Origin: Myxococcota bacterium
GTDB taxonomy: Bacteria; Myxococcota; B64-G9
Direction: 5' to 3'
Assembly (NCBI GenBank): GCA_022710975.1
Contig: JAKLGA010000001.1
Coordinates: 434,001-498,000, forward strand
Length of the DNA stretch: 64,000 bases
Under the pieces are notes generated by a model, which saw only the letters and a list, made by a program, of their open reading frames with translations, was not told where the DNA came from and did not search any database. Position 1 is the stretch's first letter. Each line of letters opens with the position of its first letter. Position numbers and translations under genes: made by a program. Below are positions 42,608-57,850 of this stretch, one piece after another.

Positions 42608-45283
42608 ATGTCCAACCGAATAGCCCAGTGTCTCTGGCTGCTCCTCGTCCTGGCCGCGGCGGCCTGCGGCTCGTCCCCGGACCCGGAGCCGTCCTGCACC
42701 GACCCCGACGGCGATCGCTACGGCCAGGGCGCGGGCTGCCTGGGCGCGGACTGCGACGAGGACGACGCGCGCTGCTGGACCGGGCTGTGCTGTCCGGTGG
42801 ACTGCAGCGATCCCGACGGGGACGGGTACGGGCAGGGCGGCGCCTGCCTGGGCGCGGACTGCGACGAGGGCGCGCCCGGCTGCCACGCGGGCGCGTGCTG
42901 CCCGGCCGCGTGCGAGGACCTCGACGGGGACGGGTACGGCCTGGGCGCTGGCTGCGCGGGCCCGGACTGCAACGACGCCGGCTCGGGCATCCACCCCGGC
43001 GCGCCCGAGGTGTGCGACACGCTGGACCAGGACTGCGACGGCCAGACGGACGAGGACGGGGTGTGCCCGGGCTGCACGGACCCCGACGGCGACGGGTTCG
43101 GCCAGGGCACGGGTTGCCTGGGGCCGGACTGCGACGAGGGGGACGCGGGCTGCAGCCAGGGGGCCTGCTGCGGCCCGGCCATCCCGCGCCTGGAGCTCTG
43201 GGCGCTCGATCTGTGGGCCCAGCCGCTGCCGCAGGGCGAGGCCCAGCTCTCGCTGGTCTGGAACGGCCAACCCGTCGAGGCCTCGGGCTGGCCCCGGGCG
43301 GTGCTGCTCCTGCGGGCCCCTGGCACGCTGGAGGGCCGGCTGGCGGCCCCGGATCACGAGGAGCTGTACTTCTCGGTCGAGGTCGTCGATCCCGCCGGCG
43401 CGGGCGGGGTGAGCGCGAGCCTGGACGCCGGCGTGCGCGACGCGGGCCTGACCTCCTCCTACGATCTGCGGCTGGTGGACGGCCAGCAGACGCCGGTGCA
43501 CAGCGTGTACCTGGGGCTGCGCCACGCCTGGTTCTCGGCCCAGGGCCGGCCGGCCCGCCGGGGCAACCTGGCCGAGCTGCTGGTCAACGGCGAGGAGGCG
43601 TTCGGCAGGCTGCACCAGGACCTCGTCGCCGCCCAGGGCGAGGTGCTCCTGTCGAGCTGGTGGTGGATGTCGGACTTCGAGCTGGTGCGGGACGCCGCCA
43701 CCCACGCCGACCTGACCCAGGCCGAGCGCTGGGCCAACACGGTGCTGGGCGTGCTCGAGCGCCTGCCGGCCACCGTCCGCATCCTGGTGGGCGAGTTCTG
43801 GGGCTCGCACGACGTGATGGACTGGCTCACCACCGACTCGACCCTGCTGGCCTACGCCGAGACCGCGGGCGACGGCATCGAGTTCATGGGCCAGGGGAAC
43901 GCCTCCTTCGGCGAGTTCGCCTGGGATCCGTCGGACTTCGTGTTCGGCGACCGGGTGCGCGGCGCCTTCCCGGAGACCGCCGGGCGCGCCTTCGAGGCCG
44001 AGCAGCCCACCGCCTCGCGCCTGCCGGCGGCCTGGGTGGACATGACCGACTGGCCCTTCATCGACCTCGAGGTCGAGCTGGCCTCCTGGCACCAGAAGTT
44101 CAGCGTGGTGGACCACCAGGTGGCCTACGTGGGCGGCATGAACATCAAGAGCACCGACTGGGACGGCCCGCAGCACCTGGTCTTCGAGCACCGCCGCATG
44201 GAGTTCGACGCCACGTCGGCCGAGCGGCACGCGGTCATGGCCAAGGAGCGCCTGCCCGACCTGGGTCCGCGGCGCGACTACATCCTGCGGCTGGAGGGCC
44301 CGGCCGCCCAGGACGCGGCCGAGGTGTTCCAGGCCCGCTGGCGCCAGGCGCGGGCCGACGGCGTGACCTACGCCGAGAACACCACCGACTTCGAGGTGGA
44401 GCGCGCCATCCCGGAGCGGGCCGGGGGCATCCAGCTCCAGGTGACCGCCACCATGCCCCAGCCCTTCTGGGAGCACGCCATCGCCGAGACCTGGTTCAAC
44501 GCGGTCGTCCAGGCGGAGCGCTACATCCTGATCGAGGACCAGTACTGGCGCATCCCGCTGCTCGTGGACGCCATCGCCAGGCGCATGCGCGAGCAGCCGG
44601 GGCTGCTCCTGGTGGTGGTGACCAAGGCCATCGACGAGTGGACCGATCCGGGCTGCGAGTGGACCTACACGACCCACCAGCAGCTGCTGGGGGAGTTCGG
44701 GCCGACGCGCTACCGCACCTATCAGCTCCGCTCCTTCGACACCAGCCCGTCCGCGCAGGCCGGGGAGGTCGCGGCCAACTTCGTGGACATCGACACCCAC
44801 TCGAAGCTCCTGGTGGTGGACGACCGCTTCCTCAGCGTGGGCTCCTGCAACAAGAACAACCGCGGCATGCTGTACGAGGGCGAGCTGAACGTGGCCGCGC
44901 TGGACGAACCGCTGACCCGCGGGGCGCGCCGCCGGGTGGTCGGCGACTGGCTGGGCGCGGGCGCCACCCCGTCCGAGGACACGGCCACCTGGTTCGCCCA
45001 GCTCGTGGCCGCGGCCGACTGGAACGCGGCGGTGCGCGCGCGCTGGGAGGCGCTCGGCGACAGCGCCGATCTCGGCGGCGGGGCGCTGCCGGCCGACCTC
45101 ACCCCGGCGGGCCTGCTCTACCCGCTGCCCTTCGGCGTCCCGGACGACTGCTTCCTCGAGGGGGTAGGCCCGGACATGACCCGCGAGGAGCTGCCCCCCG
45201 TGGTGGGGACCTGGACGGGCGGCGCCGGCCGCGGCGCGGTCAGGGCAGGCGGCGCCGGGAGTAGGCCCGCACCAGCTCGCTGA
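42608..45283 (+). CDS. Secreted phospholipase D-like protein with MopE-type repeats
   Basis: The 891-residue lipoprotein (LAAAACGS signal) has about four Cys/Asp units in its first 190 residues, of the form CTDPDGDxYGQGxGCLGADCDE, including one true MopE unit (VCDTLDQDCDGQTDEDG). The rest is a phospholipase D fold with both HKD motifs: HQKFSVVD at about 495-502 and HSKLLVVD at about 731-738, so the catalytic pair is intact. It should cleave phosphodiester bonds, likely in phospholipids, outside the cell or in the envelope. ATG 42608 has GGAGG 6 nt upstream; GTG 42602 is possible. The last 44 bp overlap the facing gene. Confidence 0.9.
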   Translation: MSNRIAQCLWLLLVLAAAACGSSPDPEPSCTDPDGDRYGQGAGCLGADCDEDDARCWTGLCCPVDCSDPDGDGYGQGGACLGADCDEGAPGCHAGACCPAACEDLDGDGYGLGAGCAGPDCNDAGSGIHPGAPEVCDTLDQDCDGQTDEDGVCPGCTDPDGDGFGQGTGCLGPDCDEGDAGCSQGACCGPAIPRLELWALDLWAQPLPQGEAQLSLVWNGQPVEASGWPRAVLLLRAPGTLEGRLAAPDHEELYFSVEVVDPAGAGGVSASLDAGVRDAGLTSSYDLRLVDGQQTPVHSVYLGLRHAWFSAQGRPARRGNLAELLVNGEEAFGRLHQDLVAAQGEVLLSSWWWMSDFELVRDAATHADLTQAERWANTVLGVLERLPATVRILVGEFWGSHDVMDWLTTDSTLLAYAETAGDGIEFMGQGNASFGEFAWDPSDFVFGDRVRGAFPETAGRAFEAEQPTASRLPAAWVDMTDWPFIDLEVELASWHQKFSVVDHQVAYVGGMNIKSTDWDGPQHLVFEHRRMEFDATSAERHAVMAKERLPDLGPRRDYILRLEGPAAQDAAEVFQARWRQARADGVTYAENTTDFEVERAIPERAGGIQLQVTATMPQPFWEHAIAETWFNAVVQAERYILIEDQYWRIPLLVDAIARRMREQPGLLLVVVTKAIDEWTDPGCEWTYTTHQQLLGEFGPTRYRTYQLRSFDTSPSAQAGEVAANFVDIDTHSKLLVVDDRFLSVGSCNKNNRGMLYEGELNVAALDEPLTRGARRRVVGDWLGAGATPSEDTATWFAQLVAAADWNAAVRARWEALGDSADLGGGALPADLTPAGLLYPLPFGVPDDCFLEGVGPDMTREELPPVVGTWTGGAGRGAVRAGGAGSRPAPAR

Positions 45284-48002
45284 GCCGGTCGAGGTCGTCC
45301 CCGTCGAAGGCCACCAGCTCCTCGAAGCCCAGCCCGCCGGAGAGCGCGATGGCGGCCAGCGAGGCCGTCGCCCCGGTGGCGCGGTCCTCGAGCCCCGCCG
45401 GCGGCAGGGGCAGGCTCAGGAGCAGCGGATCCGCGGCCGGCAGGTACACCAGCCAGCGGCCGTTCGGGGCGGCCAGCTCGAGCCGCTGGACGCCGGCGCC
45501 AGGCACCGCGCCGGCCACCAGCTCGCGCGTGGCCACGTCCCAGCTCGCCCCCTCGGGGAAGGGCAGGAAGCCGGGCTCGAAGGTCACCGCCGTGGGCAGA
45601 TCGGCGGCCACGTGCAGCACCGCCGCCGCGTCCTCGGGGGTGGCCAGGCCGGCGCCGGCCGGCATGGCCAGCGCCAGCACCCCGTAGGCGCCCACCTCCA
45701 GGCCGTCGTGGGCCGGGGCCAGGCGCATGACCAGCGAGGCCCCGCTGCCCGAGGCCTGCGCGGCGGAGAGCCCGAGCGGGGTGAAGCCCAGCCCGGAGAA
45801 GCCGCCGGCCACCACCACGACCGTGGACAGCGGCGCGCCGTCCAGGCTGGGCGGTTGCGGGGTGAGCACCTCGAGCGCCAGCGTCTGGGGCTGGTCCGGG
45901 GCCAGATCGAGATCGGGCAGGTTGGCCCAGTCCGGCCGGAGCTCGGCGAGGTCCCCGTCCCGATCGCGATCGTCCGCGTCGGCGACCAGCGGCAGGGGGA
46001 ACACCTCGAAGGCCGGCCGCAGCCCGTGCTGCAGGGCGGAGAAGGCCGGGAAGAGCGCCAGCACCAGCTCCTCCAGCGAGCCGATCCCGCCCAGCAGCTC
46101 GCCCAGCAGGCTCATGTCCACCTTGCCGCCCAGCGCCCAGGCGTTTCGCAGCCCCGCCGGCCCGGTCACGTCGTAGCCAGGCTTGATCGAGATGGGCAGC
46201 CCCTGGAGCTCGAGGCCGAGCGTCATGTGCGCCGGCAGCGGCAGGTCGAACACCTGCCCGAGCAGGTTCACCTCCACCTGGTAGGTGGGCCCGAGCAGCG
46301 CGGCGAAGTCGATGGCCAGCAGATCTCCGGACAGGCTGGTGCCGGCCAGCCCCATGGCCAGCGGGCCCACGCCCGGGAAGGTCATCTGCCCGCTGAAGCC
46401 GCCGGCGGTGGCCACCCCGGTGCGGGGCGGCAGGGCGACGAACAGGTCGCGAGACGCGCTGCCGGCGATCGACACCCAGTCGTACTCCGCGTGGAACAGG
46501 TGCACGTCCGCCGGGCCGGCCGGGGCCGGGAAGGAGGCCGCGCCCAGCGCGTCGGTCTCGGCCTGCAGCGTCTGGCCGTCGGCCACCAGCAGCACCGCGG
46601 CGCCGGCGATCGGCCGCCGGCCCACCGCCGAGACCGCGGTCACGCGCAGCGTGTCCGCGGCCGGCTCCAGCACGTTGGTGAAGGTGACCGGGCGGCTGCG
46701 GCGGCCCGCGTCCACCGCCTCGGCCGTGACCAGGGTGGCGCCGGCCTCGGCCCCGCCCACCAGCTCCCGGCCCTCGATGGCGGCGCGGGGCGGGTCGCTG
46801 GAGGTCCAGGCGAAGGTGATCCCGGGCACGGCCTGGCCGGCCTGGTTGAGGGCCAGGGCCTCGAGGCGCACCCGCTGGCCCGGCCGGATCGGCCCGCCCG
46901 GGGTGAGCACCAGCACCTCGTAGACGGAGGTCGGGTTGCCGGGCTCCACGCACGCCCCGCCGCTGCACACCAGGGGGGCCTGGCAGTCGGCCGGCCCGCG
47001 GCACACGTGCGGCCGGCACAGGCCGCCCACGCAGTCCTGGTCCGGAGAGCAGTCGGCCTCGGCCTGGCAGCCCGCGGCCGGGTGGCAGTGCCCGTCCTCG
47101 CAGGTGGCCCCGGCCCCGCAGCTCCCGTCCAGGCTGCAGGCCGGCAGCTCCTCGCAGCGGCCGGCCAGGCAGACGAAGTTCCAGTCCGGGCAGTCCCCGT
47201 CGGCCTGGCACGGCGTGTAGACCTCGCAGCGGCCGGCCTGGCAGCGCATGAGCTCGCCCGGGCAGTCGGCGTCCGCCTGGCACTCGGCCGGGACGCACAC
47301 GTAGTCCACGCAGATGGTGCCGGCCTGGAAGCAGGTCGCGTCGCTCAGGCAGCGCAGGCTGCAGCGGCCGTCCACGCAGGCCCGCAGCTGTCCGCAGTCC
47401 TCGTCCGCCGCGCAGCCCAGCTCGCAGAACCAGCCGTTGCACACCTGGCCGGCGGGGCACTCCTCGTCGGTCGCGCAGCGGGAGGGCAGCGTGCAGGCCC
47501 CCTCCACGCACAGCTCGAAGGGCAGGCAGTCCGCCGGGTCCAGGCACGGCCGGGTCTGGGTGGCGCAGGCGCAGTCCACGCACACCTCGAACAGGCCGCA
47601 GTCCTGGTCCGCCTCGCACTCGCACGACCGGCAGGTCCCCTCGAAGCAGCGCTGGCCGCCGGGGCAGTCCTCGTCGTCGCTGCACTCCTGGGAGCGGCAC
47701 AGGCCGTCCAGGCAGCGCAGCCCCTCGGGGCAGTCCGCGTCCAGGGAGCAGTTGCCGCAGCGGCCGTCAGCCTGGCAGATCATGCCGCCCTCGCAGTCCG
47801 AGGAGTCCTGGCAAGGGCGGAAGCCCTCCCGGCAGTGCTGCTCGACGCAGATCTGGCCGGGCTCGCACTGGCCGTCGTCGGTGCAGATGCTGCCCAGGCC
47901 GTAGTCCTGGCAGCCGGAGCCGAGCAGCGCGAGCAGGCCCAGGACCGCGGGCAGACACGGGGACCGTCCGGCGGACCGGCGGATGGCGGCGCGGGCGCTC
48001 AT
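45240..48002 (-). CDS. Large lipoprotein with many Dickkopf-like Cys repeats
   Basis: The 920-residue product has a lipoprotein signal (LLGSGC, Cys at 31). From about 35 to 390 there are about a dozen units C-x-x-D-x-x-C-x-x-G-x-x-C-x-x-G-x-C, as in CTDDGQCEPGQICVEQHC. An Ig-like domain with TPGGPIRPGQRVRLEALALNQ, another Ig-type region and a long Leu/Ala-rich C-terminal half follow, with DADDRDRDGDLAEL resembling a calcium loop. Such proteins are abundant on myxobacterial surfaces and probably form disulfide-bonded fibres or receptors. No enzymatic motif. It faces the PLD gene with a 44-bp overlap at the ends. Confidence 0.83.
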   Translation of the reverse strand: MSARAAIRRSAGRSPCLPAVLGLLALLGSGCQDYGLGSICTDDGQCEPGQICVEQHCREGFRPCQDSSDCEGGMICQADGRCGNCSLDADCPEGLRCLDGLCRSQECSDDEDCPGGQRCFEGTCRSCECEADQDCGLFEVCVDCACATQTRPCLDPADCLPFELCVEGACTLPSRCATDEECPAGQVCNGWFCELGCAADEDCGQLRACVDGRCSLRCLSDATCFQAGTICVDYVCVPAECQADADCPGELMRCQAGRCEVYTPCQADGDCPDWNFVCLAGRCEELPACSLDGSCGAGATCEDGHCHPAAGCQAEADCSPDQDCVGGLCRPHVCRGPADCQAPLVCSGGACVEPGNPTSVYEVLVLTPGGPIRPGQRVRLEALALNQAGQAVPGITFAWTSSDPPRAAIEGRELVGGAEAGATLVTAEAVDAGRRSRPVTFTNVLEPAADTLRVTAVSAVGRRPIAGAAVLLVADGQTLQAETDALGAASFPAPAGPADVHLFHAEYDWVSIAGSASRDLFVALPPRTGVATAGGFSGQMTFPGVGPLAMGLAGTSLSGDLLAIDFAALLGPTYQVEVNLLGQVFDLPLPAHMTLGLELQGLPISIKPGYDVTGPAGLRNAWALGGKVDMSLLGELLGGIGSLEELVLALFPAFSALQHGLRPAFEVFPLPLVADADDRDRDGDLAELRPDWANLPDLDLAPDQPQTLALEVLTPQPPSLDGAPLSTVVVVAGGFSGLGFTPLGLSAAQASGSGASLVMRLAPAHDGLEVGAYGVLALAMPAGAGLATPEDAAAVLHVAADLPTAVTFEPGFLPFPEGASWDVATRELVAGAVPGAGVQRLELAAPNGRWLVYLPAADPLLLSLPLPPAGLEDRATGATASLAAIALSGGLGFEELVAFDGDDLDRLSELVRAYSRRRLP

Positions 48003-48086
48003 GGGGGGCACCTCCTGGAGGTGGCGTGGTCCCTCCATGCCTACCACCCCGGGCGGGCTGGCCACAAGCCGTGTCCGGCCGGCCGG

Positions 48087-48116
48087 TTGACGCGCGCCCC
48101 GCGTGGGTGCTGGAAT
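48087..48116 (+). promoter_or_regulatory. Candidate promoter implying a leaderless mRNA
   Basis: TTGACG (48087-48092) and TGGAAT (48111-48116) are 18 nt apart. The expected start is 1-2 bases before the ATG at 48125, and no Shine-Dalgarno is visible. Confidence 0.35.
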
Positions 48117-48124
48117 GCCCGCCC

Positions 48125-49093
48125 ATGACCGCCTCCCCGCACATCTACTTCTTCTCGGGCAAGGGCGGGGTGGGCAAGACCACCCTGGCCGCGGCCACCG
48201 CGGTGTGGCTCGCGCGCCGGGGCGAGCGGGTGCTGCTCACCTCGACCGACCCGGCGCACAACCTCTCGGACGTGTTCGACCGCGCCATCGGTCACCACGG
48301 GGCGTGGATCGAGCCCAACCTGTTCGCCCTGGAGATCGACGCCACCGCCCGCTGGGCCGAGGCCACCGGGCAGGCCGCGCCCGCGGACGGGGCGGTGCCC
48401 AGGCCGGCGGGTCGCCTGCAGCGCAAGCTGGCCGAGGCGGTCCAGGTGCTGGGTGAGGCCCCCGGCGTGGACGAGATGATCTCGCTCGACCTGCTGCTGC
48501 AGGCCGCCAGCTCACCCGACCACGACGCGGTCATCTTCGACACCGCCCCGACCGGGCACACGCTCCGGCTGATGTCTCTGCCGCACATGCTGGAGGGCTG
48601 GTTCGGCGCGCTGCTCTCGCTGCGCGGCCACTTCTCCCGCCTGGGGCGCGTGTTCCGGCGGCTGCTGCCGCGCTCGCGCGAGGGCGAGGCCGAGCCGCCC
48701 GATCTGGGCGCGGAGATGGCCTCGGCCCGCGAGCGGGTGGGCGCGCTGCGCGGGCTACTCGGCGACGCGGCCCGCACCTCCTTCGTGCTGGTCAGCATCC
48801 CCGAGGCGCTCAGCGTGCTGGAGAGCCAGCGCACCCTGGCCAGCCTCGCCCAGCAGGGCATCCCCGTGGCGCGCGTGCTGGCCAACCAGGTGCAGCCCGA
48901 GTCGCCGGGCTGCGTCCACTGCCAGGCCCGGCGGACCATCCACCTGCGCGAGCTCGAGCACCTGCGGCAGGTGGTCGGCGCGGTGCCGGTGCAGGTGGTG
49001 GAGGCCAAGCCCCGCGTGGTGCGCGGCCCGGACGAGTTGGCGCGCCTGGGGGCCGAGCTGTGGGGCGCGCCGGCCGGGACGGCAGGAGGGTGA
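48125..49093 (+). CDS. ArsA/Get3-like ATPase
   Basis: The 322-residue product has the ArsA-type P-loop SGKGGVGKTT (11-20), TSTDPAHNLSDVFD (switch region) and FDTAPTGHTLRLMSLP. A CVHC pair near 261-264 matches the CxxC zinc motif of Get3. It is a single-domain ATPase, unlike the two-domain arsenite pump ATPase, and no ars genes are near. Targeting of membrane proteins or a metal-dependent assembly task is more likely. The stop is followed at once by the Rieske gene (GTG 49090 would overlap it), so both work together. Confidence 0.88.
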   Translation: MTASPHIYFFSGKGGVGKTTLAAATAVWLARRGERVLLTSTDPAHNLSDVFDRAIGHHGAWIEPNLFALEIDATARWAEATGQAAPADGAVPRPAGRLQRKLAEAVQVLGEAPGVDEMISLDLLLQAASSPDHDAVIFDTAPTGHTLRLMSLPHMLEGWFGALLSLRGHFSRLGRVFRRLLPRSREGEAEPPDLGAEMASARERVGALRGLLGDAARTSFVLVSIPEALSVLESQRTLASLAQQGIPVARVLANQVQPESPGCVHCQARRTIHLRELEHLRQVVGAVPVQVVEAKPRVVRGPDELARLGAELWGAPAGTAGG

Positions 49094-49098
49094 GCGGC

Positions 49099-49437
49099 GT
49101 GGAGATGGTCAAGGCAGGCCGCGTCGGCGAGGTGCGCGAGCGCGGGCGCAAGGTGCTGGCGCTGCTCGGGCGCAAGGTGGGCGTGTTCGCGGACGGGGAC
49201 GGGTTCTTCGCCCTGGAGCTGACCTGCAAGCACCAGGGCGCGGATCTGTCCGCTGGCCGGGTCGTGGGCGGGGTGGTCACCTGCCCGCGCCACGGCTGGC
49301 GCTACGAGCTGGCCACCGGTCGCTGCCTGGATCACGCCTCGGCGCCGCTGAGGCGGCACGCCCTGGAGCTGCGGGGGGAGGAGATCTGGATCTCGCTCGG
49401 GCCGGTGGAGGGCGGGGCGCCGGGCTCCAATCGCTAG
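49099..49437 (+). CDS. Rieske [2Fe-2S] ferredoxin-like protein
   Basis: The 112-residue product has both Rieske half-sites: CKHQGADL (Cys43/His45) and CPRHGWRYEL (Cys62/His65). It should bind a [2Fe-2S] cluster and act as an electron carrier or as a redox-active part of another protein. No TM or Tat signal is seen, so it is cytoplasmic. I chose GTG 49099 because AGGAGG at 49084-49089 lies 9 nt upstream; GTG 49090 overlaps the ArsA stop, and ATG 49105 is also possible. Its TAG and the facing stop share CTAG. Confidence 0.88.
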   Translation: MEMVKAGRVGEVRERGRKVLALLGRKVGVFADGDGFFALELTCKHQGADLSAGRVVGGVVTCPRHGWRYELATGRCLDHASAPLRRHALELRGEEIWISLGPVEGGAPGSNR

Positions 49438-49901
49438 TGGGCCGCCTCGAAGACGCCGATCACCTCGTCGACCAGCCCCTCGGCCTGGTCCTCGGTGAGC
49501 CCGAGCGCCGAGCGCAGCCGCTGATCGTACTCGAACTCGCAGGTGTTCGTGTCGTAGTCGGCCATGGCCATGGCGTAGGCCAGCTTGTAGGCCTGGTCGC
49601 GGGCGAAGGGGCGTGACAGCCTGGCGGCGGCCTTGCCCAGGCGCTTCTCCTGGCCCTCGGCCGAAGCGCGCTCGGACAGCTCGCCCGCCTTGGCGCGCAC
49701 CGAGCCCTTGTTCACCTGCGGCCCGTACAGCACCAGCATGGCCTTGACGAAGGCGTCCAGCTCCTCGTCGGACAGCACGCCGTCGGAGGCGATGGCCAGG
49801 TAGGCCACCTCCATCATCGCCTCCCGCTCCGCGTCCGACACCTCGGCCGCGACCCCCGGCGGGAAGGCCTTCTCCAGGTCGAGCTTGAACATGCGCTTCA
49901 T
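49434..49901 (-). CDS. TerB-like helical protein
   Basis: The 155-residue product has VSDAEREAMMEVAYLAIASDGVLSDEELDAFVKAML, the D-G-x-x-x-x-E-E helical pattern of TerB-like/DUF533-type proteins. A second part has EFEYDQRLRSALGLTEDQAEGLVDEV. It is acidic and all-helical, without a signal peptide. TerB proteins bind metal or membrane partners in stress islands, but no ter genes are here. The ATG at 49901 has GAGGAGAA upstream. Confidence 0.7.
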   Translation of the reverse strand: MKRMFKLDLEKAFPPGVAAEVSDAEREAMMEVAYLAIASDGVLSDEELDAFVKAMLVLYGPQVNKGSVRAKAGELSERASAEGQEKRLGKAAARLSRPFARDQAYKLAYAMAMADYDTNTCEFEYDQRLRSALGLTEDQAEGLVDEVIGVFEAAH

Positions 49902-49995
49902 GGGTTCTCCTCGTCGCACATCCGGCGCCACGCTAGCACGCCGGGGGACCGGGGGGAAGGGCGCATGCTGAAACGCGAGGGGGACCGGCCTCCCG

Positions 49996-50274
49996 TCACT
50001 TCTTGGAGGGCTTGCCGTTCTTGATGATCCAGGTCTCGCCGTCCTTCATCTCGTAGCCGGGCTTCTTCTCGTCGATGCACAGCCAGCCCGGGCCCACGCC
50101 CGTGGTGGTGTTGCTGGAGATGGAGGTGTGGGTGCCGGAGAAGCACGAGTCCGAGCTCGCGATGAGCAGCTTGTAGCTCTGGGAGTCCTGGTTGGACAGG
50201 GTCACGCCCGCCAGGGCCGACAGGGCGAACAGGCTGATACCGAGCACCGCCACGATGCACGCGATCCGCTTCAT
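49996..50274 (-). CDS. Small exported protein with two Cys
   Basis: The 92-residue product has a signal peptide (about 1-22, LSALA-G). The mature part is 70 residues with SDSCFSGTHTSISSNTTTGVG, a PGWLCIDEKKPGYEMKDG segment and a basic end. Two Cys could form one disulfide. No family recognised. GGAGGG precedes the ATG, and the promoter TTGACG-N18-TACGCT is one of the cleanest in the window, so it may be well expressed. Its length and secretion suggest a surface or signalling peptide, but this is a guess. Confidence 0.65.
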   Translation of the reverse strand: MKRIACIVAVLGISLFALSALAGVTLSNQDSQSYKLLIASSDSCFSGTHTSISSNTTTGVGPGWLCIDEKKPGYEMKDGETWIIKNGKPSKK

Positions 50275-50304
50275 GACATCCCTCCAGGGTTTGGGTTCGT
50301 CGGC

Positions 50305-50334
50305 AGCGTAGCCCCAGCGGCGGAAGCCCGTCAA
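50305..50334 (-). promoter_or_regulatory. Strong candidate promoter of the small exported-protein gene
   Basis: On the minus strand TTGACG (50334-50329) and TACGCT (50310-50305) are 18 nt apart. The ATG follows 30 nt later after GGAGGG. Confidence 0.5.
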
Positions 50335-50362
50335 GCCCCGGGCCTGCGCGCCCCCCTCCGAC

Positions 50363-50392
50363 TTGCCAGGCCGGGGCGAACTGCGGTAAGCC
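50363..50392 (+). promoter_or_regulatory. Candidate promoter of the DUF6918 gene
   Basis: TTGCCA (50363-50368) and TAAGCC (50387-50392) are 18 nt apart, with CCGGAGG between the -10 and the ATG. It is divergent from the promoter at 50305-50334. Confidence 0.35.
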
Positions 50393-50413
50393 GGAGCCGG
50401 AGGTGAACGCCCG

Positions 50414-50860
50414 ATGGACAAGCTGGCGGCGCGCTTGCCGCTCCCGGAGCGGCGCAAGGAGATCGTGGAGGCCTGCGTGGGCTTGCTGGAGACCGAGGTC
50501 GGCCGCAAGACCGGCATGTCTGGCCTGGCGGTCAAGACCGCCTACAAGGTGTTCAAGGCCATCAAGCCGGGGCTGGCGCGGGAGGCCATCGACGGGCTCC
50601 TGGACGACTTCGTGGACTCGCTCGATCCGCTGCACGGGCAGTTCCAGGCGGAACCCCGGGGCAGCTTCGGCGGCTTCCTGAAGGGGCGGGCGCACGAGGC
50701 GGCCGAGGCCCTGCTGGGGGTGACCGACCGCCGGGCCGACGGGAGCCGCCACACCACCCTGGTGAAGCTGTACCGGAAGCTCCGCCCCGCGGCTCTCCGC
50801 AACGTAGAGGAGGCCGTGCCTGGGCTGGGGGATCTGTTCGATCGCTTCTACCGTCCCTGA
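50414..50860 (+). CDS. DUF6918-like protein
   Basis: The 148-residue product has RRKEIVEACVGLLETEVGRK, GLAVKTAYKVFKAIKPG, then DFVDSLDPLHGQF and LLGVTDRRADG, ending NVEEAVPGLGDLFDRFY. This matches a family known to me as DUF6918, found in actinobacteria and Myxococcota, of unknown function. The last 24 codons and stop lie in the first of two 133-bp tandem copies, so a non-coding remnant of its 3' end follows. Promoter at 50363. No TM or signal. Confidence 0.8.
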   Translation: MDKLAARLPLPERRKEIVEACVGLLETEVGRKTGMSGLAVKTAYKVFKAIKPGLAREAIDGLLDDFVDSLDPLHGQFQAEPRGSFGGFLKGRAHEAAEALLGVTDRRADGSRHTTLVKLYRKLRPAALRNVEEAVPGLGDLFDRFYRP

Positions 50861-51051
50861 GCCTCTGGGGTGTTGGGCTGGAAACTCTTCGCGCGGGACG
50901 GCGCGCTCGAGTTTCTCGCCCGCGGCTCTCCGCAACGTAGAGGAGGCCGTGCCTGGGCTGGGGGATCTGTTCGATCGCTTCTACCGTCCCTGAGCCTCTG
51001 GGGCGTTGGGCTGGAAACTCTTCGCGCGGGACGGCGCGCTCGAGTTTCTCG
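50786..51051. repeat. 133-bp tandem duplication containing the DUF6918 3' end and a hairpin
   Basis: Bases 50786-50918 and 50919-51051 are identical except for one position (T versus C in the CTGGGGyGTTGGG stretch). Each copy holds the last 24 DUF6918 codons and stop plus 58 bp downstream. In each copy GAAACTC/GAGTTTC and CGCGC/GCGCG form an imperfect hairpin (50881-50915 and 51014-51048). A 4-base start of a third copy follows. It looks recent, since only one change has accumulated. The rest of 50861-51089 holds no gene. Confidence 0.95.
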
Positions 51052-51089
51052 CCCGACCTCTTCGACCGGCTCTGCGGCCGGGACCGAGC

Positions 51090-51932
51090 TCAGGCGGGGG
51101 CGCCGAAGGCGGCGCGCTGCTCCTCGGTGACCCCGAGCAGCAGCGGCTTCTTGTAGGAGCGCCTGGCCGGGGGCAGCGCGGCGCGGGCCTCGTTGCGGGC
51201 CTTGGCACGGGCCTTGAGCTGGGCGCGGGGCTGCAGGGCGGCCAGCTTCTGCTGGGTCGAGCGTAGCTCGCTCGAGGCGATGCGCAGCTTCTGCTCGGCC
51301 TGCTCGAGCTTGTTCAGCCGGATCTCGTACTGCTGGATGCGCTGGATGGCGCCGGCCAGGGCGGTCAGGTGGGCCTTGGACTGGCGCCTGGCCCAGTCCA
51401 GGTCCTCGGCCAGCTTCTTGGCCACGGCCGCCTCGCGCAGCGCCTCCTCGGCCCGCTTCTTGGCCACGGCCGCCTGCTCCTCGGCCTGCTTGACCCGCTC
51501 CTCGGCCCGGCGCACGGTGCCGCGCGCCTCGGTCAGCTCCATCTCGAAGCGGTTGCGCTCGAGCGGGGTGGCCTCGGTCTTGAACTTCTGGTCCAGGAGG
51601 TCCTTGGCCGCCTCGCGCTTCTGGTGGGTCAGCCGCACCACCTGCTCGAGCAGGTCCTTGTTGCGCTCCTGGGCGTCCTGGAGCTCCTTGCGCACGGCCG
51701 CCTCGCGGCCCATCCAGGTCAGGCGCTCCTCGCGCGCCTTGTCCAGCTCCGCCTTGGCCTGGGCCAGGCCGGCCTCGGCCTGCTGGAGCGAGGCCGTGAG
51801 CTGCTCGGACTGGCGGCGCCGGTCGTTCGCCTCGCTGCGGGCCTGCTGCAGCGCCGGGGGCTCTCCCAGCACCTGGATCAGCGTGTCCCAGCCTTTGTGG
51901 GGGAAGTTGGAGCGGATCAGATCGATCAGCAT
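51090..51932 (-). CDS. Coiled-coil protein of unknown function
   Basis: The 280-residue product is almost wholly helical from about 25 to 230, rich in Ala, Glu, Lys, Arg and Gln, with clear heptads (AEERVKQAEEQAAVAKKRAEE and similar). Residues 1-25 (SNFPHKGWDTLIQVLGE) and the C-terminus (PPARRSYKKPLLLGVTEEQ) are less repetitive. No signal peptide or TM. It follows dusB after 6 bp and shares its transcript. Structural or scaffolding work is likely; the family is not recognised. Confidence 0.7.
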   Translation of the reverse strand: MLIDLIRSNFPHKGWDTLIQVLGEPPALQQARSEANDRRRQSEQLTASLQQAEAGLAQAKAELDKAREERLTWMGREAAVRKELQDAQERNKDLLEQVVRLTHQKREAAKDLLDQKFKTEATPLERNRFEMELTEARGTVRRAEERVKQAEEQAAVAKKRAEEALREAAVAKKLAEDLDWARRQSKAHLTALAGAIQRIQQYEIRLNKLEQAEQKLRIASSELRSTQQKLAALQPRAQLKARAKARNEARAALPPARRSYKKPLLLGVTEEQRAAFGAPA

Positions 51933-51938
51933 GGCGTG

Positions 51939-52952
51939 CTATGACCTCGTGTGTTCCGGGCCGTGGTTCTCTGTCTCCGGGAGCCCGACCAGGCGGGCGA
52001 AGGCGGCCTCGAGCTCCGCGGCGGTGCTCATCCTTCCCAGGCTGCGTCGCAGCTCCGTCGCGCCTCGCAGGCCTCGGGAATACCAGATGAGGTGCTTGCG
52101 CATGGGCGGCACCGCGTGCCGCTCCGAACCCACCCAGGCTAGCATGAGGCCGAGGTGGGTGCAAAACACTTCGTGGCGCTCGCGCGCCGGGGGCGGGTAG
52201 GCGGGCGCGCCGGGCGCGCCGAGCTGGCCGAGCGCCCGCGGCAGCCAGGGGTTACCCAGCGCCCCGCGCCCGATCATCAGCCCGGCGCAGCCGGTCTCGG
52301 CCCGCATGCGCTCGCCGTCCTCGGGCGTGTGCAGATCCCCGTTGCCCAGCACCGGGATGCGCAGGCGGGCCACCAGCCGGCCGATCAGGGCCCAGTCGGC
52401 GCGGCCCGCGTAGCCCTGGGCCCGCGTGCGGGCGTGCAGCGCGACGGCGTCCGCGCCGGCGTCCTGCAGCCGCTCGGCCACCTCCAGCGCGTTCACCTCG
52501 TCGGCCGACCAGCCCGCGCGGATCTTGGCCGTCAGCGGACAGGCGACCACCTTGCGCACGGCCCGCACGATGGCCTCGGCCCGCCCGGGATCGCGCATGA
52601 GCGCGGCGCCGCTGCCCTGGCGCACGATCTTGGGCACCGGGCAGCCCATGTTGAGGTCGATCCCGTCGAAGCCCAGCGCCACCACCTGCTCGGCCGCGGC
52701 CGCCAGGCGCGCCGGCTCCCGGCCGAAGAGCTGGGCGAACAGGGGGCGCTCCTCCGGGTCGAAGGCGAGCAGCGCCCGCGTCGGGCGCTGGGCGCGCAGC
52801 AGGCCCTCGGCCGAGATCATCTCGGTCACCACCGCCGGGCAGCCCAGGCGGCGCAGCACCCGCCGGAAGGGCGAGTCGGTCACCCCGGCCATGGGGGCCA
52901 TCCAGACCGCGGGGGCGACCCGCAGGCCGCCGAGCACGAGCGGGGGGATCAT
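51939..52952 (-). CDS. dusB: tRNA-dihydrouridine synthase
   Basis: The 337-residue product has the DusB/NifR3 pattern: APMAGVTDSPFRRVLRRLG, VVTEMISAEG, then GIDLNMGCPVPKIVRQGSGAAL with catalytic Cys104, AKIRAGW, and LMIGRGALGNPW. It is an FMN enzyme that reduces uridines in the D-loop of tRNA in the cytoplasm. Full length. The ATG is 6 bp after the upstream hydrolase gene's stop, so the three genes 53852-51090 are an operon. Confidence 0.95.
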   Translation of the reverse strand: MIPPLVLGGLRVAPAVWMAPMAGVTDSPFRRVLRRLGCPAVVTEMISAEGLLRAQRPTRALLAFDPEERPLFAQLFGREPARLAAAAEQVVALGFDGIDLNMGCPVPKIVRQGSGAALMRDPGRAEAIVRAVRKVVACPLTAKIRAGWSADEVNALEVAERLQDAGADAVALHARTRAQGYAGRADWALIGRLVARLRIPVLGNGDLHTPEDGERMRAETGCAGLMIGRGALGNPWLPRALGQLGAPGAPAYPPPARERHEVFCTHLGLMLAWVGSERHAVPPMRKHLIWYSRGLRGATELRRSLGRMSTAAELEAAFARLVGLPETENHGPEHTRS

Positions 52953-52958
52953 GGCGGC

Positions 52959-53852
52959 TCAGCGCTCCTCGAGCACGGCCCGGATCATGGCCTCCAGGTT
53001 GAGCTGGAAGGCCTTCTCGGGCTGCCCGGCCGACAGCCCGTGCCGCAGCTCGCCGGTGAGCGCGGCGGCCAGGGCGGCCGGCGCGAGGCCCTGCGCGTGC
53101 AGCTCCCGCACGCGGGCCCGGAACCGCCGGGCCGTCTCCAGCGCCACCGGGATGTGGCTGCGGGCGTCGGCGCCCGTGCGCACGCCGTGGTGGGGCAGCG
53201 CGATGGCCTCGAGCTCCAGGCCGGCCAGCCGCTCCAGGCTGGCCACGTACTCGCGGAACGAGGACACCGACTGGGCCTGCACCTCGTCCGGGCTGACGTA
53301 GGCGCCCAGCGCCTCGCCGCCCACGAGCAGCCGGTCGGGCTCGACCAGGTAGACCATCGAGCAGCGGGTGTGCCCGGGCGCCTCCAGCGCCTGGACCCGC
53401 ACGCCGGCCCCCAGGTCCAGGTGCTCGCCGTCCCGCAGCACCCGGTCCACGCGCAGATCCTCGGGCTCGAGCGGCACCTCGCGATCGCCCCACACCTGGG
53501 CGAGGCCGTACATGCCCTCCTCCTGGCGGTTCATGCGCAGGACGAACTCCCGCACCCGCGGCTTCTCGAGGGTCGCGGCGGCCACGGCCGAGCCGGCCAC
53601 CTGGAGGCCGGGCAGCAGGCGGCGGAGCAGGCCCAGCCCCCCCACGTGGTCGTAGTGGGTGTGGGTCAGCAGCACCCACGCGGGCGTGAGCTTGCCCGGG
53701 CCGAAGTGCTCCTCGAGCAGCGGCGCGGCCGAGCTGATGGCCCCGTCCACGAGGGCCGCGCGCTCGCCGGTCACCAGGTAGCAGGGGAAGGCCATGGCGC
53801 CCACGGCGCGCGTGTGGGCGCTCACCGGTCCGGACTCGGTCAGCCAGGCCAT
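52959..53852 (-). CDS. Metallo-beta-lactamase-fold hydrolase
   Basis: The 297-residue product has the motif LLTHTHYDHVGG with His64, His66, Asp68 and His69, then EAPGHTRCSMVYLV and later LPHHGVRTG, giving the usual metal ligands of glyoxalase II/lactonase-type enzymes. The first 60 residues form the usual beta start with FPCYLVTGERAALVDGAI. Substrate unknown. The ATG is preceded by GGAGGAGGCGACC. Just upstream of dusB; no obvious functional link. Confidence 0.85.
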   Translation of the reverse strand: MAWLTESGPVSAHTRAVGAMAFPCYLVTGERAALVDGAISSAAPLLEEHFGPGKLTPAWVLLTHTHYDHVGGLGLLRRLLPGLQVAGSAVAAATLEKPRVREFVLRMNRQEEGMYGLAQVWGDREVPLEPEDLRVDRVLRDGEHLDLGAGVRVQALEAPGHTRCSMVYLVEPDRLLVGGEALGAYVSPDEVQAQSVSSFREYVASLERLAGLELEAIALPHHGVRTGADARSHIPVALETARRFRARVRELHAQGLAPAALAAALTGELRHGLSAGQPEKAFQLNLEAMIRAVLEER

Positions 53853-53874
53853 GCGTCGGTCGCCTCCTCCCCCC

Positions 53875-56310
53875 TCAGGGGGGCGCCATTGTAGGCGGCG
53901 GGGCCGCGGCGGGCAACCGCCGGCGGCGCCGCAGGTCGAGCCCGAGCCCGAGCAGGAGCAGGGCGGTCAGCAGCCCGAGGCTCAGCAGCGACAGGCGCGC
54001 GGCCCGGCCCGGGCCGGCCGGCTCGAAGCTGAGCTCCAGGCGGCCGTCGTCCGGGCCGAGGCGCACCGCCATGCCCAGGTAGTCGGCGCGCAGGATGGGG
54101 ATCTCCCGGCCGTCGACCCGCGCCCGCCAGCCCGGGTGGAAGGTGTCCCGCACGACCAGCCAGCCCGGCCCGGTCAGCGCCAGCGCCCAGGCGCGCCGCG
54201 AGGTGCTGCGCTCCTCGAGCCGCACCTCTCCGGGCGGCGGCTGGACCGCTCCGCACGCGGGCAGGCGCTCCGCGGGCAGCGCGGCCCGCGCCGCGGATCC
54301 CGGCCGCCGCCCCTCGAACAGGAGCTCGGCCGGCTCGAGCAGCGCCACCCGGCGCTCCGGCCCGAGCCCGGCGATCTGCGCCCGGGCCTCTGCCGGGCCC
54401 GAGACCAGCGCGCAGCCGCCGAACAGCTCGTGCGGCGCGCCGGCCGGGTGCACCGCCAGCACGGCCACGTTCTCCTCGGGCAGGGTCTCCACGAGCTCGA
54501 GCCGGCCCTGCTCGGCCAGCGCCCGGAGCCCGGGCGCGGCCGGCCGCACCGTGGTCAGCACGTGGGTCACCCCCAGCGCGCGGGCCCAGCTGGGCAGCCC
54601 GGCGAAGACCTCCCCGCCGTGCAGGGTCATGAACCGGGACGGCACGGTGGGCGCGTAGCCGAAGGTGTAGCGCAGCCCCTCCAGCAGCCCCCAGTTGTGG
54701 CGCAGGCTGGCCCGGCCCACGCGGTCGTCCAGCCCGGGCGGCTGGCGGTCGAGCTGCCCGTCGCGCAGCAGCTTGGTCCAGCCTGGCCCGGCCAGCAGCC
54801 CGCCGGCCCGCGAGGGCTGGTCCAGCGCGGCGGACGGGGCCCGCCAGGAGGTCGGCGCCCAGAGCAGCGCGTCCAGCAGCGCGAGCGCCATGAAGCCCGC
54901 CAGCAGGCGCTGGCGCCGGAGCGGGCTGCCGGGGCCCAGGCAGGCGAGCAGCAGCATGAGCGCGGCCGCCAGCCCCAGCCCGCCGGCGGTCAGCGCGTTC
55001 TGCCGGAGCAGCTCCGCCGCCCCGTCTGCGCCCCCGCCGGGCGAGAGCCCCAGGGCCAGTCCGGCGGACAGGCCGCACAGCGCGACCAGCGCGCCCAGCC
55101 CGAGCCGCAGCGGACGATCCTCCGCGCGGGCGCGCGCGCGCAGGTGGGCCAGCCCCAGGCCGATCAGGCCGAACAGGAACAGGTTCGCGTAGCTCCAGAA
55201 CTTGGCCGGGAAGCGCAGGTGCGCGTAGACGGGCGCGTGCGCGTGCAGCAGCGGGTGGAGCACGAAGGCGTCGCCGAGCGCCACGCCCAGGAAGACGAGC
55301 ACCGCCAGGAGCAGGCCGAGGTTGCGTGGGGCGCGCAGGGCGCGCCAGGCGCCCAGGCCGGCCAGCAGCAGCAGCGGCAGCCCGAGGTAGAGGGAGTCGT
55401 GCCAGAACCGGCGGGCGTAGGGCAGATCCGGGGCGGTGAGCGCCTGGCCCCAGAAGGTGCCCTCGGCCGCCCGGCCCCACAGCCCCGGGACCACGAGCTG
55501 GGCGAGCTGGCCGGGCGCCAGGGAGAACCAGCTCGCCTCCGGGTAGGGCACACCCTCCGCCCGCAGGCTCTCCCCCAGCGTGTCGAAGGCGGGCAGCCAG
55601 GCCGGGGCGCTGACCCCCACCGCCAGCAGGCCGGCCAGCAGCAGGCCCAGCAGCACCCTCCGCCGGCCGCGCAGGCCGCCCAGCAGCGCGTCGAGCAGCA
55701 GGATGCCCGACATCCAGAACACGCCGAAGGGGTCGCCCTCCAGGACCGGCCAGGCCAGGCAGACCGTCAGCACGGCCAGCCGCGCCGGGCTGGGCCGGAC
55801 CTGCCAGCGGCCGGAGGCCCACAGCGCCCAGGGGAACAGGCAGATGCCGGCCAGGAAGGGGGAGCCCGAGACCGTGGACAGCACCACGCCGCTGAGGGGG
55901 TAGCAGGCGCCGACCAGCCAGGCGGTGGGCTCGTCACGGGTCAGGGCGCGCAGCCACATGGCCATGCCGAGCCCGCCCAGCGCGAGCAGCGCGATCAGGT
56001 ACAGCTCGTGGACCAGGTAGCTGTCGCCGAGCAGGTAGAGCCAGCCGAGCGGCGCGTAGAGCCCGAGCTGGGGATCGGCCACCTGCTCCAGGCCGGAGAA
56101 CAGGCCGTCGTTCCACAGCGGCACGCTGCCGTCCTCGACAAGCCGCCGCCAGAACCAGCGGCGCAGCGCGTAGACGAAGCTCGACGTGTCCCGGGCGGCC
56201 AGCCACTGGCCGCCGAGCAGGCCGGGCAGCAGGAGCAGCACCGGAGCCAGCGGCGGGAGCAGCCAGGCGAACCACCGCAGCCGGGCGGTGCGGTCAGCCG
56301 GAGGAGGCAT
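53875..56310 (-). CDS. YfhO-like polytopic membrane protein
   Basis: The 811-residue product has about 13 TM helices and the family's C-terminal marker DTFHPGWRARVDGREIPILRADYL, which in YfhO proteins reads Y-P-G-W-x-A-x-V-D-G. N-terminal sequence DTSSFVYALRRWFWRR is also typical. YfhO members are GT-C-like and assist glycosylation of surface polymers in Gram-positives, and may transfer sugars from lipid carriers here. The ATG at 56310 is chosen because the family begins here; upstream frame to 56664 overlaps the divergent gene. A candidate promoter lies at 56320-56349. Confidence 0.85.
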   Translation of the reverse strand: MPPPADRTARLRWFAWLLPPLAPVLLLLPGLLGGQWLAARDTSSFVYALRRWFWRRLVEDGSVPLWNDGLFSGLEQVADPQLGLYAPLGWLYLLGDSYLVHELYLIALLALGGLGMAMWLRALTRDEPTAWLVGACYPLSGVVLSTVSGSPFLAGICLFPWALWASGRWQVRPSPARLAVLTVCLAWPVLEGDPFGVFWMSGILLLDALLGGLRGRRRVLLGLLLAGLLAVGVSAPAWLPAFDTLGESLRAEGVPYPEASWFSLAPGQLAQLVVPGLWGRAAEGTFWGQALTAPDLPYARRFWHDSLYLGLPLLLLAGLGAWRALRAPRNLGLLLAVLVFLGVALGDAFVLHPLLHAHAPVYAHLRFPAKFWSYANLFLFGLIGLGLAHLRARARAEDRPLRLGLGALVALCGLSAGLALGLSPGGGADGAAELLRQNALTAGGLGLAAALMLLLACLGPGSPLRRQRLLAGFMALALLDALLWAPTSWRAPSAALDQPSRAGGLLAGPGWTKLLRDGQLDRQPPGLDDRVGRASLRHNWGLLEGLRYTFGYAPTVPSRFMTLHGGEVFAGLPSWARALGVTHVLTTVRPAAPGLRALAEQGRLELVETLPEENVAVLAVHPAGAPHELFGGCALVSGPAEARAQIAGLGPERRVALLEPAELLFEGRRPGSAARAALPAERLPACGAVQPPPGEVRLEERSTSRRAWALALTGPGWLVVRDTFHPGWRARVDGREIPILRADYLGMAVRLGPDDGRLELSFEPAGPGRAARLSLLSLGLLTALLLLGLGLDLRRRRRLPAAAPPPTMAPP

Positions 56311-56319
56311 CGCGCTCGG

Positions 56320-56349
56320 AGCAGACCACGTCCGGGTCTCGGGAGTCAA
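56320..56349 (-). promoter_or_regulatory. Candidate promoter of the YfhO-like gene, near-leaderless
   Basis: On the minus strand TTGACT (56349-56344) and TCTGCT (56325-56320) are 18 nt apart; transcription would start about 3 bases before the ATG at 56310. Confidence 0.35.
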
Positions 56350-56375
56350 CCCGGCCCGCCGCGCGATCTTTCGGG

Positions 56376-56405
56376 TTGCCCTGGGTCGGCCGGGCTGGGT
56401 AGTCT
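56376..56405 (+). promoter_or_regulatory. Candidate promoter of the transglycosylase gene, near-leaderless
   Basis: TTGCCC (56376-56381) and TAGTCT (56400-56405) are 18 nt apart. The expected start is 2 bases before the ATG at 56414, and no Shine-Dalgarno is visible. Confidence 0.4.
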
Positions 56406-56413
56406 TGCTGCCC

Positions 56414-57850
56414 ATGAGATCCGCCTGGCTGTTCGCCCTGCTGCTGCTGTCGCTCCCGGCCACCCCGGCCCGGGCGCAGGCCGAGCCGGGGCCGCCGCCC
56501 GCGGCCGTGGAGGCCGCGGCCGGCGAGGGCAGCGCGCCCGCGGCCGAGGCGCCCTCGACCGACGAGCTGGCCGGCCAGGATGAGCTCGAGGCCATGGCCA
56601 AGGCCGAGGACCAGGAGCTCGGCGGGGCGGCCTGGGTCGGGCCCGATCCCCGGGAGCAGAGCATCTACGAGGGGCTCGCCCCACCCGTCCGCGCCGGCGT
56701 GCTGCGGACCGACCGCCTGGAGTGGGAGCTGGGCACCGGCGGGCGCATGTCCGGCAGCGCGCGGCCGGGTGGCGGGCCGACCGGCCGCGCCGAGGGAGGG
56801 GAGGCCGACGGGTTCGACATCCCCGTGGTGATGAACCCGGCCGTGGAGCAGCTGCTGGGGTTTTTGCAGGGGCCCGGACGGAGGTGGTTCGCCCGCTGGC
56901 TGGGGCGCTCGACGCGCTACTACCCGCTCATGCGCTCGATCCTGAAGAAGCACGGGCTGCCCGAGGACCTGGTGTTCGTGGCCCTGGTCGAGAGCGGGCT
57001 GAACTACGCGGCCTACTCGCCCGCCCACGCCAGCGGCCCCTGGCAGTTCATCAAGGCCACCGGCGAGCGCTACGGGCTGAAGTCAGACTTCTGGCTGGAC
57101 GAGCGGCGCGACTACCTCAAGGCCACCGACGCGGCCGCCCGCCACCTGCGGGATCTGTACGCGCGCTTCGGCGATTGGCTGCTGGCCTGGGCGGCCTACA
57201 ACACCGGGGAGGGGGCCGTGGACCGCGCCCTCAAGCGCTCGGGCGCCGAGGACTTCTGGGGCCTGCTGGCGGCCGGCGAGCTGGCCGACGAGACCCGCCG
57301 CTACGTGCCCAAGATCCTGGCTGCGGCCATCATCTCCAAGGACCCCGAGCAGTACGGCTTCGGAGACGTGGAGTACCTCAGGCCGCTGGAGTGGGAGGAC
57401 GTCCAGGTGCAGGGCATGGTGGACCTCAAGGCCGCCGCCCGGGCGGTGGGCGCGAACCTGGAGGAGCTGAAGGAGCTGAACCCCGAGCTGCGCTTCTGGT
57501 GCAGCCCGCCCTACCTCAAGTCCTACCTGCTGCGCATCCCCAAGGGCCGCGCCGAGCGCTTCCGCAAGGGCTACAACCCCTCGGCCCGCGACCGCGGGGT
57601 GACCTTCACCCGGCACGTGCTGCGCCCGGGCGAGACGCTCAGCCACGTGGCGCTCACCTACAAGACCTCGATCGAGGCGCTGATGAGCGCCAACCGCATC
57701 ACCGACGCCCGCCGCGTCCGGGCTGGCAAGGCGCTGATCGTGCCCATCCAGCCCTGCGGCACCCCGGTGGGCGCCTCGGCCGCGGCGGTGGACAAGAAGG
57801 CGGACAAGAAGGCGAGCAAGAAGGCGGGCGGGAAGCCCAAGCCGCGCTAG
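56414..57850 (+). CDS. Lytic murein transglycosylase with LysM (MltD-like)
   Basis: The 478-residue product has a signal peptide (about 1-21, PARAQ). A linker leads to the SLT domain (about 155-330), with catalytic Glu193 in FVALVESGLNYAAYSPAHASGPWQF and AYNTGEGAVDRAL. A LysM motif (about 405-450, HVLRPGETLSHVALTYKTS...NRITD) binds peptidoglycan. A Lys-rich tail (KKADKKASKKAGG) ends the protein. It cleaves glycan strands to form 1,6-anhydro-MurNAc ends in the periplasm and is likely active in cell wall remodelling. Confidence 0.93.
   Translation: MRSAWLFALLLLSLPATPARAQAEPGPPPAAVEAAAGEGSAPAAEAPSTDELAGQDELEAMAKAEDQELGGAAWVGPDPREQSIYEGLAPPVRAGVLRTDRLEWELGTGGRMSGSARPGGGPTGRAEGGEADGFDIPVVMNPAVEQLLGFLQGPGRRWFARWLGRSTRYYPLMRSILKKHGLPEDLVFVALVESGLNYAAYSPAHASGPWQFIKATGERYGLKSDFWLDERRDYLKATDAAARHLRDLYARFGDWLLAWAAYNTGEGAVDRALKRSGAEDFWGLLAAGELADETRRYVPKILAAAIISKDPEQYGFGDVEYLRPLEWEDVQVQGMVDLKAAARAVGANLEELKELNPELRFWCSPPYLKSYLLRIPKGRAERFRKGYNPSARDRGVTFTRHVLRPGETLSHVALTYKTSIEALMSANRITDARRVRAGKALIVPIQPCGTPVGASAAAVDKKADKKASKKAGGKPKPR

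Follow-up and report, generated by a model that had tools for sequence, protein, structure and literature searches.

A dispersed family of CTAG-footed, REP-like hairpins abutting stop codons in a Myxococcota genome

The hairpin that lies beyond the DUF6918 gene in the DNA considered here (the window, a stretch of 64,000 nucleotides from a Myxococcota bacterium) is not private to that gene but belongs to a family with at least about 60 members dispersed through the genome. An earlier, sequence-only reading had called attention to a 133-bp tandem duplication that includes the hairpin, and its interpretation is partly supported. By itself, the duplication is ordinary. The point of interest is the family of hairpins, which are dispersed, covary in their stems, nest within one another, and abut stop codons. 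I consider it probable that they constitute a lineage-specific family of mobile palindromes, tagged by CTAG and similar to REPs and BIMEs, and that the copy in the window has decayed and been doubled along with 89 bp of neighbouring DNA, most of which belongs to the end of DUF6918.

The DUF6918 gene (window positions 50414..50860, plus strand, 148 amino acids) is an open reading frame that matches PF21893 (E 1.9e-42; 145.5 bits, as compared to a gathering cut-off of 27), with homologues of up to 66% identity in named genomes, from Myxococcales and from Deltaproteobacteria MAGs, a relationship that would assign the window to Myxococcota. Genes were called by a home-made codon model rather than by a standard caller. 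The TGA stop of DUF6918 (50858-50860) lies within the first copy of the tandem unit (50786..50918, plus strand), which by coordinate arithmetic begins in frame 24 codons ahead of the stop and ends with the hairpin. The second copy (50919..51051, plus strand) is noncoding, and the reading frame of the gene is intact after the duplication. The two adjacent 133-bp copies, one base apart, had been described correctly and given correct coordinates: TRF finds a repeat of period 133 over 50786-51055 (2.0 copies, 99% match, score 533), a repeat finder gives the same unit, and the sole mismatch is a T at 50871 facing a C at 51004. The coordinates of the open reading frame and the PF21893 match likewise bear out the claim that each copy carries the last 24 codons of DUF6918 and its stop, and I accept the view that the duplication is recent.

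One breakpoint of the unit coincides with the foot of the hairpin, and the second falls within DUF6918, 89 bp ahead of the hairpin. The four bases CCCG that open each copy (50786-50789 and 50919-50922) recur immediately after the second (51052..51055, plus strand), and a microhomology of 4 bp at breakpoints is typical of slippage or template switching. Beyond lies a convergent gene of unknown family (51090..51932, minus strand, stop at 51090). Several relatives (L028, L131, L132, L134) have DUF6918, the facing gene, and Dus in the same order, without the hairpin.

The hairpin itself, which I will call B, occupies 50875..50918 in the first copy and 51008..51051 in the second, on the minus strand in both cases. 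The earlier claim that it is real holds, in that both copies match the family model R2 (described below) at 62.7 bits (E 6.2e-16); the fold of one copy compared to shuffled sequences gives only z = -1.87. The B unit is 44 nt long and consists, read 5' to 3' on the minus strand of the window, of a foot, an 8-bp outer stem, GA, a 5-bp inner stem, and a loop, followed by the other side of the inner stem, GAA, the other side of the outer stem, and CTTG-like bases. In the first copy, on the minus strand, the foot is at 50915-50918, the outer stem at 50909-50916/50880-50887, and the inner stem at 50902-50906/50891-50895. The consensus of the foot is CTAG, found in 33 of 61 feet, and many of the remaining feet are one base off. 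At other loci a partner hairpin, A, stands at the place corresponding to 50861..50874, where sequence comparison by eye reveals no clear hairpin, A being either decayed or absent. The copies in the window thus depart from the rest in having CGAG, a degenerate CTAG, as foot, in that the foot is not the stop codon of a gene, and in lacking a recognizable A, and for these reasons they look decayed.

A DNA similarity search of the genome (7.13 Mb in 29 contigs, here designated C1, C2, and so forth) with the 133-bp unit found 18 places: the two copies plus 16 matches, all of these to the hairpin only. Covariance models extend the number. Model R1, built from 12 copies (alignment A1), has at least 44 matches at E<=0.001, and model R2, built from 37 copies (alignment A2), has at least 60 at E<=0.01, both numbers being lower bounds, since 150 of about 23,000-24,000 first-look candidates were scored. 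The catalogue used in what follows takes 61 of the 63 R2 matches at E<=0.1 (omitting two, with E 0.057 and 0.080), and these 61 represent 49 loci. The sequence-only reading had proposed looking for the unit elsewhere in the genome and in close relatives. The hairpin is indeed dispersed in the genome, but none was encountered in the relatives searched: R1 has no match in 38 genomes, eight of them from the same family (the nearest genomes belong to other genera), and R2, under stricter filters, has none in 194 other genomes of the phylum. Within the window, no Rfam family has a match at its gathering score.

Is the structure of the hairpin maintained from copy to copy? Candidates for A2 came from the first 48 of the 57 R1 matches. 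Among these, the matches with a length of 41, 42 or 44 nt amounted to 40 distinct sequences, of which the 37 that measure 44 nt make up the alignment. In this alignment 90.0% of the cells pair, as compared to 76.6 +- 1.1 in shuffled alignments, and the covariation is 0.344, as compared to 0.120, neither value being reached in any of 500 shuffles. Nine of the 13 pairs show change on both sides; further pair types are unexceptional in number (139 of 500 shuffles). Because the sequences of A2 were collected with a model that takes structure into account, which tilts the pair counts towards structure, the test was repeated with a sequence-only model, R3. Its nine full or near-full-length matches from outside the seed (two 36-nt array copies, partial matches, a 42-nt variant, and one match with a nested insert were omitted) form 107 of 117 pairs and break 10, and they show 13 compensatory double changes, where simulation leads one to expect 1.3 and reaches 13 in none of 5000 trials. 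In A2 and in the R3 control alike, pairing is kept with alternative complementary residues in the stems. Compensatory changes could also come from another source, hairpin-templated correction, without selection. G-U pairs are few, filling only six cells of A2, and the stems keep Watson-Crick pairing, in contrast to the frequent GT pairing reported for REPs of the GTAG and CGTC type (PMC3733652). The scarcity of G-U pairs is at least as compatible with single-stranded DNA as with RNA.

The hairpins occur in larger assemblies as well. In many copies, hairpin A (CTAG-CCCCGTGTCGCTTCGCGCCACGGG-like) adjoins B to make a doublet with CTAG at both outer ends, an arrangement read from a set of copies. 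A third hairpin, C, related to B, splits B at one and the same position in seven unrelated loci (C27:79530, C1:639123, C3:89361, C12:487269, C1:96483, C13:136065, and C4:64358). A fourth, D, lies within the loop of B, for example at C28:187965, C9:92044, and C12:2797, and at C24:316527 hairpin C is found within D within B. These nested composites at unrelated loci are signs of mobility. Arrays, with several units within 250 bp, account for seven of the 49 loci; examples are 37-bp arrays of B on C2 and 64-bp arrays of A-B at the end of C23. One stretch of C2 (L071, C2:100103-100289) is built of five hairpin monomers, 37 bp each, with CTAG as the link between them and with no hairpin A. A rare variant with CGATTG/CAATCG is present twice, at C1:721415 and C1:722032, in opposite orientation and about 600 bp apart.

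The doublets bring to mind a different kind of mobile element. IS630-like DDE transposons duplicate a TA/CTAG target, and the CTAGs that bound many A-B elements on either side resemble such a duplication. The family might then consist of plain MITEs, copies of a cut-and-paste DDE transposon in which the hairpins are incidental. I think this very improbable, given that the A and B ends differ and do not form a pair of inverted repeats, that B alone forms the 37-bp arrays, and that the conserved feature is the pairing within the hairpin.

The placement of the hairpins with respect to genes is far from even. Of the 49 loci, 27 lie between convergent genes, 13 between tandem genes, 3 between divergent genes, and 3, by the gene calls, inside genes (one of which, C26:7428, looks like an error of the gene caller), with 3 at contig ends unclassifiable. 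Convergent junctions thus account for 27 of 43 classifiable loci, while 858 kb of C1 contain 96 convergent, 468 tandem, and 95 divergent junctions. The excess is significant whether judged by junction counts (p = 6e-13) or by intergenic bases (p = 7e-11). The foot coincides exactly with the stop codon of the adjoining gene at 27 of the 49 loci and does not do so at the other 22. When only single-copy loci with CTAG as foot are considered, the foot is a stop in 21 of 24, as compared to 56 of the 178 CTAGs in C1 (p = 2e-8). CTAG is rare in C1 (178 occurrences versus 779 expected), and 34 of the 178 are in coding sequence. The genes at which the family sits are unrelated.

Bidirectional terminators or 3' mRNA stabilizers might well be placed between convergent genes and immediately at stops, and strong hairpins with compensatory changes would suit them too. 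On such an account the hairpins are alike by chance, and the copy in the window ends both DUF6918 and the gene that faces it. This seems to me improbable. An intrinsic terminator is a GC hairpin followed by a U-tract; the U-tract is missing here, there are no terminator-like sites in 45000-57000 of the window, and the variant outer stems (CAATTC/GAATTG and CGATTG/CAATCG) leave no common run of T. Moreover, the unpaired and foot positions are also alike, identical nested composites are found at unrelated genes, and relatives with the same gene order do not have the repeat, all of which argues for copying rather than convergence. Whatever cellular role the hairpins may have, the earlier suggestion that this one serves as a 3' mRNA element of DUF6918 is not supported, considering the lack of a U-tract, the unrelated host genes, and the few G-U pairs.

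The family has much in common with REPs. Its members are short imperfect palindromes in many copies (at least 60 at E<=0.01), mostly extragenic (only three of 49 loci in genes), with a conserved tetranucleotide at the foot of the hairpin and, in many copies, the inverted doublets with outer tags known from BIMEs and REPINs. They resemble the REPs of Di Nocera et al. 2013 (PMC3733652) in features of both elements and dimers, including a tag that can supply a stop codon. The superfamilies described there are tagged by GTAG and CGTC, whereas the tag here is CTAG, a word with no occurrence in the text of that article; neither GTAG (or a GYRG-like tag) nor CGTC appears among the 61 feet. Another difference from those superfamilies is the nesting of hairpins inside hairpins at fixed positions. 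The BIMEs and REPINs of E. coli (PMC8266576 and PMC6006769) also have a foot 5' of the hairpin, a mismatch in mid-stem, inverted doublets of two hairpin types, and mosaic arrays. Their guide, however, is GT[AG]G, not CTAG, and they are associated with TnpA_REP, while no flanking tnpA_REP was found here. A substrate from S. maltophilia mutated to CTAG was cut less (PMC8266576). The hairpins of class 3 TnpA_Y1 (PMC6006769) are similarly dispersed and have a foot other than GTAG, but that foot is CnGA and those hairpins are tied to a Y1 enzyme, whereas the hairpins here have CTAG and no linked gene. Among the open-licence full texts searched, none came to light that deals with REPs tagged by CTAG or with repeats of this kind in Myxococcota. 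Since the tag is neither GTAG nor CGTC and no RAYT gene is flanked by the hairpins, I call the family a REP-like, CTAG-tagged variant, outside the published superfamilies. Integron attC sites were considered too and were dropped, as no cassette array was seen.

Which enzyme might move such hairpins? The genome has five RAYT-like Y1 genes by Pfam Y1_Tnp and six by NF047646, the latter all under the cut-off (28.6-51.3 bits versus 80). No R2 match at E<0.1 lies near these genes (the best has E 0.18), so the REPtron arrangement, REPs flanking a tnpA_REP or RAYT gene, is not seen. Nonetheless, the genome does encode RAYT-like Y1 proteins, and an enzyme might thus act on the hairpins in trans. RAYT-like Y1 transposase genes are found at L022, L023, L024, and L025 (on C4, C1, C5, and C3), and C20 also encodes a RAYT-like protein; three of the genes are alike over 748-1198 bp, with a DNA identity of 88-89%, and from this likeness the gene may itself have been mobile.

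If the family is indeed mobile and REP/BIME-like, then a RAYT-type single-strand (HUH/Y1) nuclease, acting in trans, would move hairpins to positions next to CTAG sites. Insertion just 3' of CTAG would leave the TAG stop of a gene intact, and an element placed on the opposite strand of the palindromic CTAG would run into the gene and presumably be selected against. Copies would collect at gene ends because CTAG, seldom found in coding sequence, is common at stops and because insertion 3' of CTAG spares the stop. A bolder version of this idea, which I offer tentatively, is that CTAG marks a further class of REP, moved by a RAYT-like nuclease that inserts 3' of CTAG, with CTAG, found here for the most part at stops and between genes, providing a safe harbour at gene ends and with hairpins nesting in the loops and stems of earlier ones, up to three levels deep.

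The same hairpins may stall or misalign replication, leading to the growth of tandem arrays, sometimes with flanking DNA, and the 133-bp duplication would be one such event in the growth of a REP cluster, with CCCG as the microhomology. The earlier suggestion that the hairpin had a part in the copying is therefore plausible, in view of the breakpoint at the foot and the distribution of tandem repeats: of 10 repeats found by TRF with period >=35 and match >=90% in 858 kb of C1, seven are inside genes, and two of the three that are not (the one in the window and C1:330918) coincide with the hairpin family. That coincidence speaks against a random duplication unrelated to the hairpin, for which the 4-bp microhomology alone would be sufficient. 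It might also be supposed that the doubling is an assembly error, in a draft genome with contigs broken at repeats. The last 127 bases of C13 are the same as C23:1-127, an exact overlap of contig ends at a repeat break beside a family hairpin, as in a de Bruijn assembly with k=127. The two copies in the window differ by a SNP, and from its position their longest exact match is 85 nt, below the inferred k and short enough for an assembler of that kind to separate them. An assembly artefact is thus an unlikely source of the doubling, and I regard chance duplication and assembly error, even taken together, as unlikely. The overlap of C13 and C23 suggests that family repeats do break this assembly.

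Other observations concern repeats and contig ends. A repeat of 105-bp period at C1:855831-856310 (4.6 copies, 97% match) lies outside called genes and is without the family hairpin, and the window contains a 108-bp tandem repeat at 42694-42975 (2.6 copies, 78% match). The segment C23:1-112 was considered as the end of a mobile element and rejected, being the 127-nt overlap with C13, and C23:1-1500 compared with plasmids gave weak distant matches only.

A CTAG-tagged family in a lineage of Myxococcota would widen the REP class beyond its two main tagged superfamilies. A palindromic CTAG target could explain the placement at stop codons without selection for function, and the family could thereby serve to test how REPs choose their sites. 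The nested copies constitute a natural set of insertions whose order can be read.
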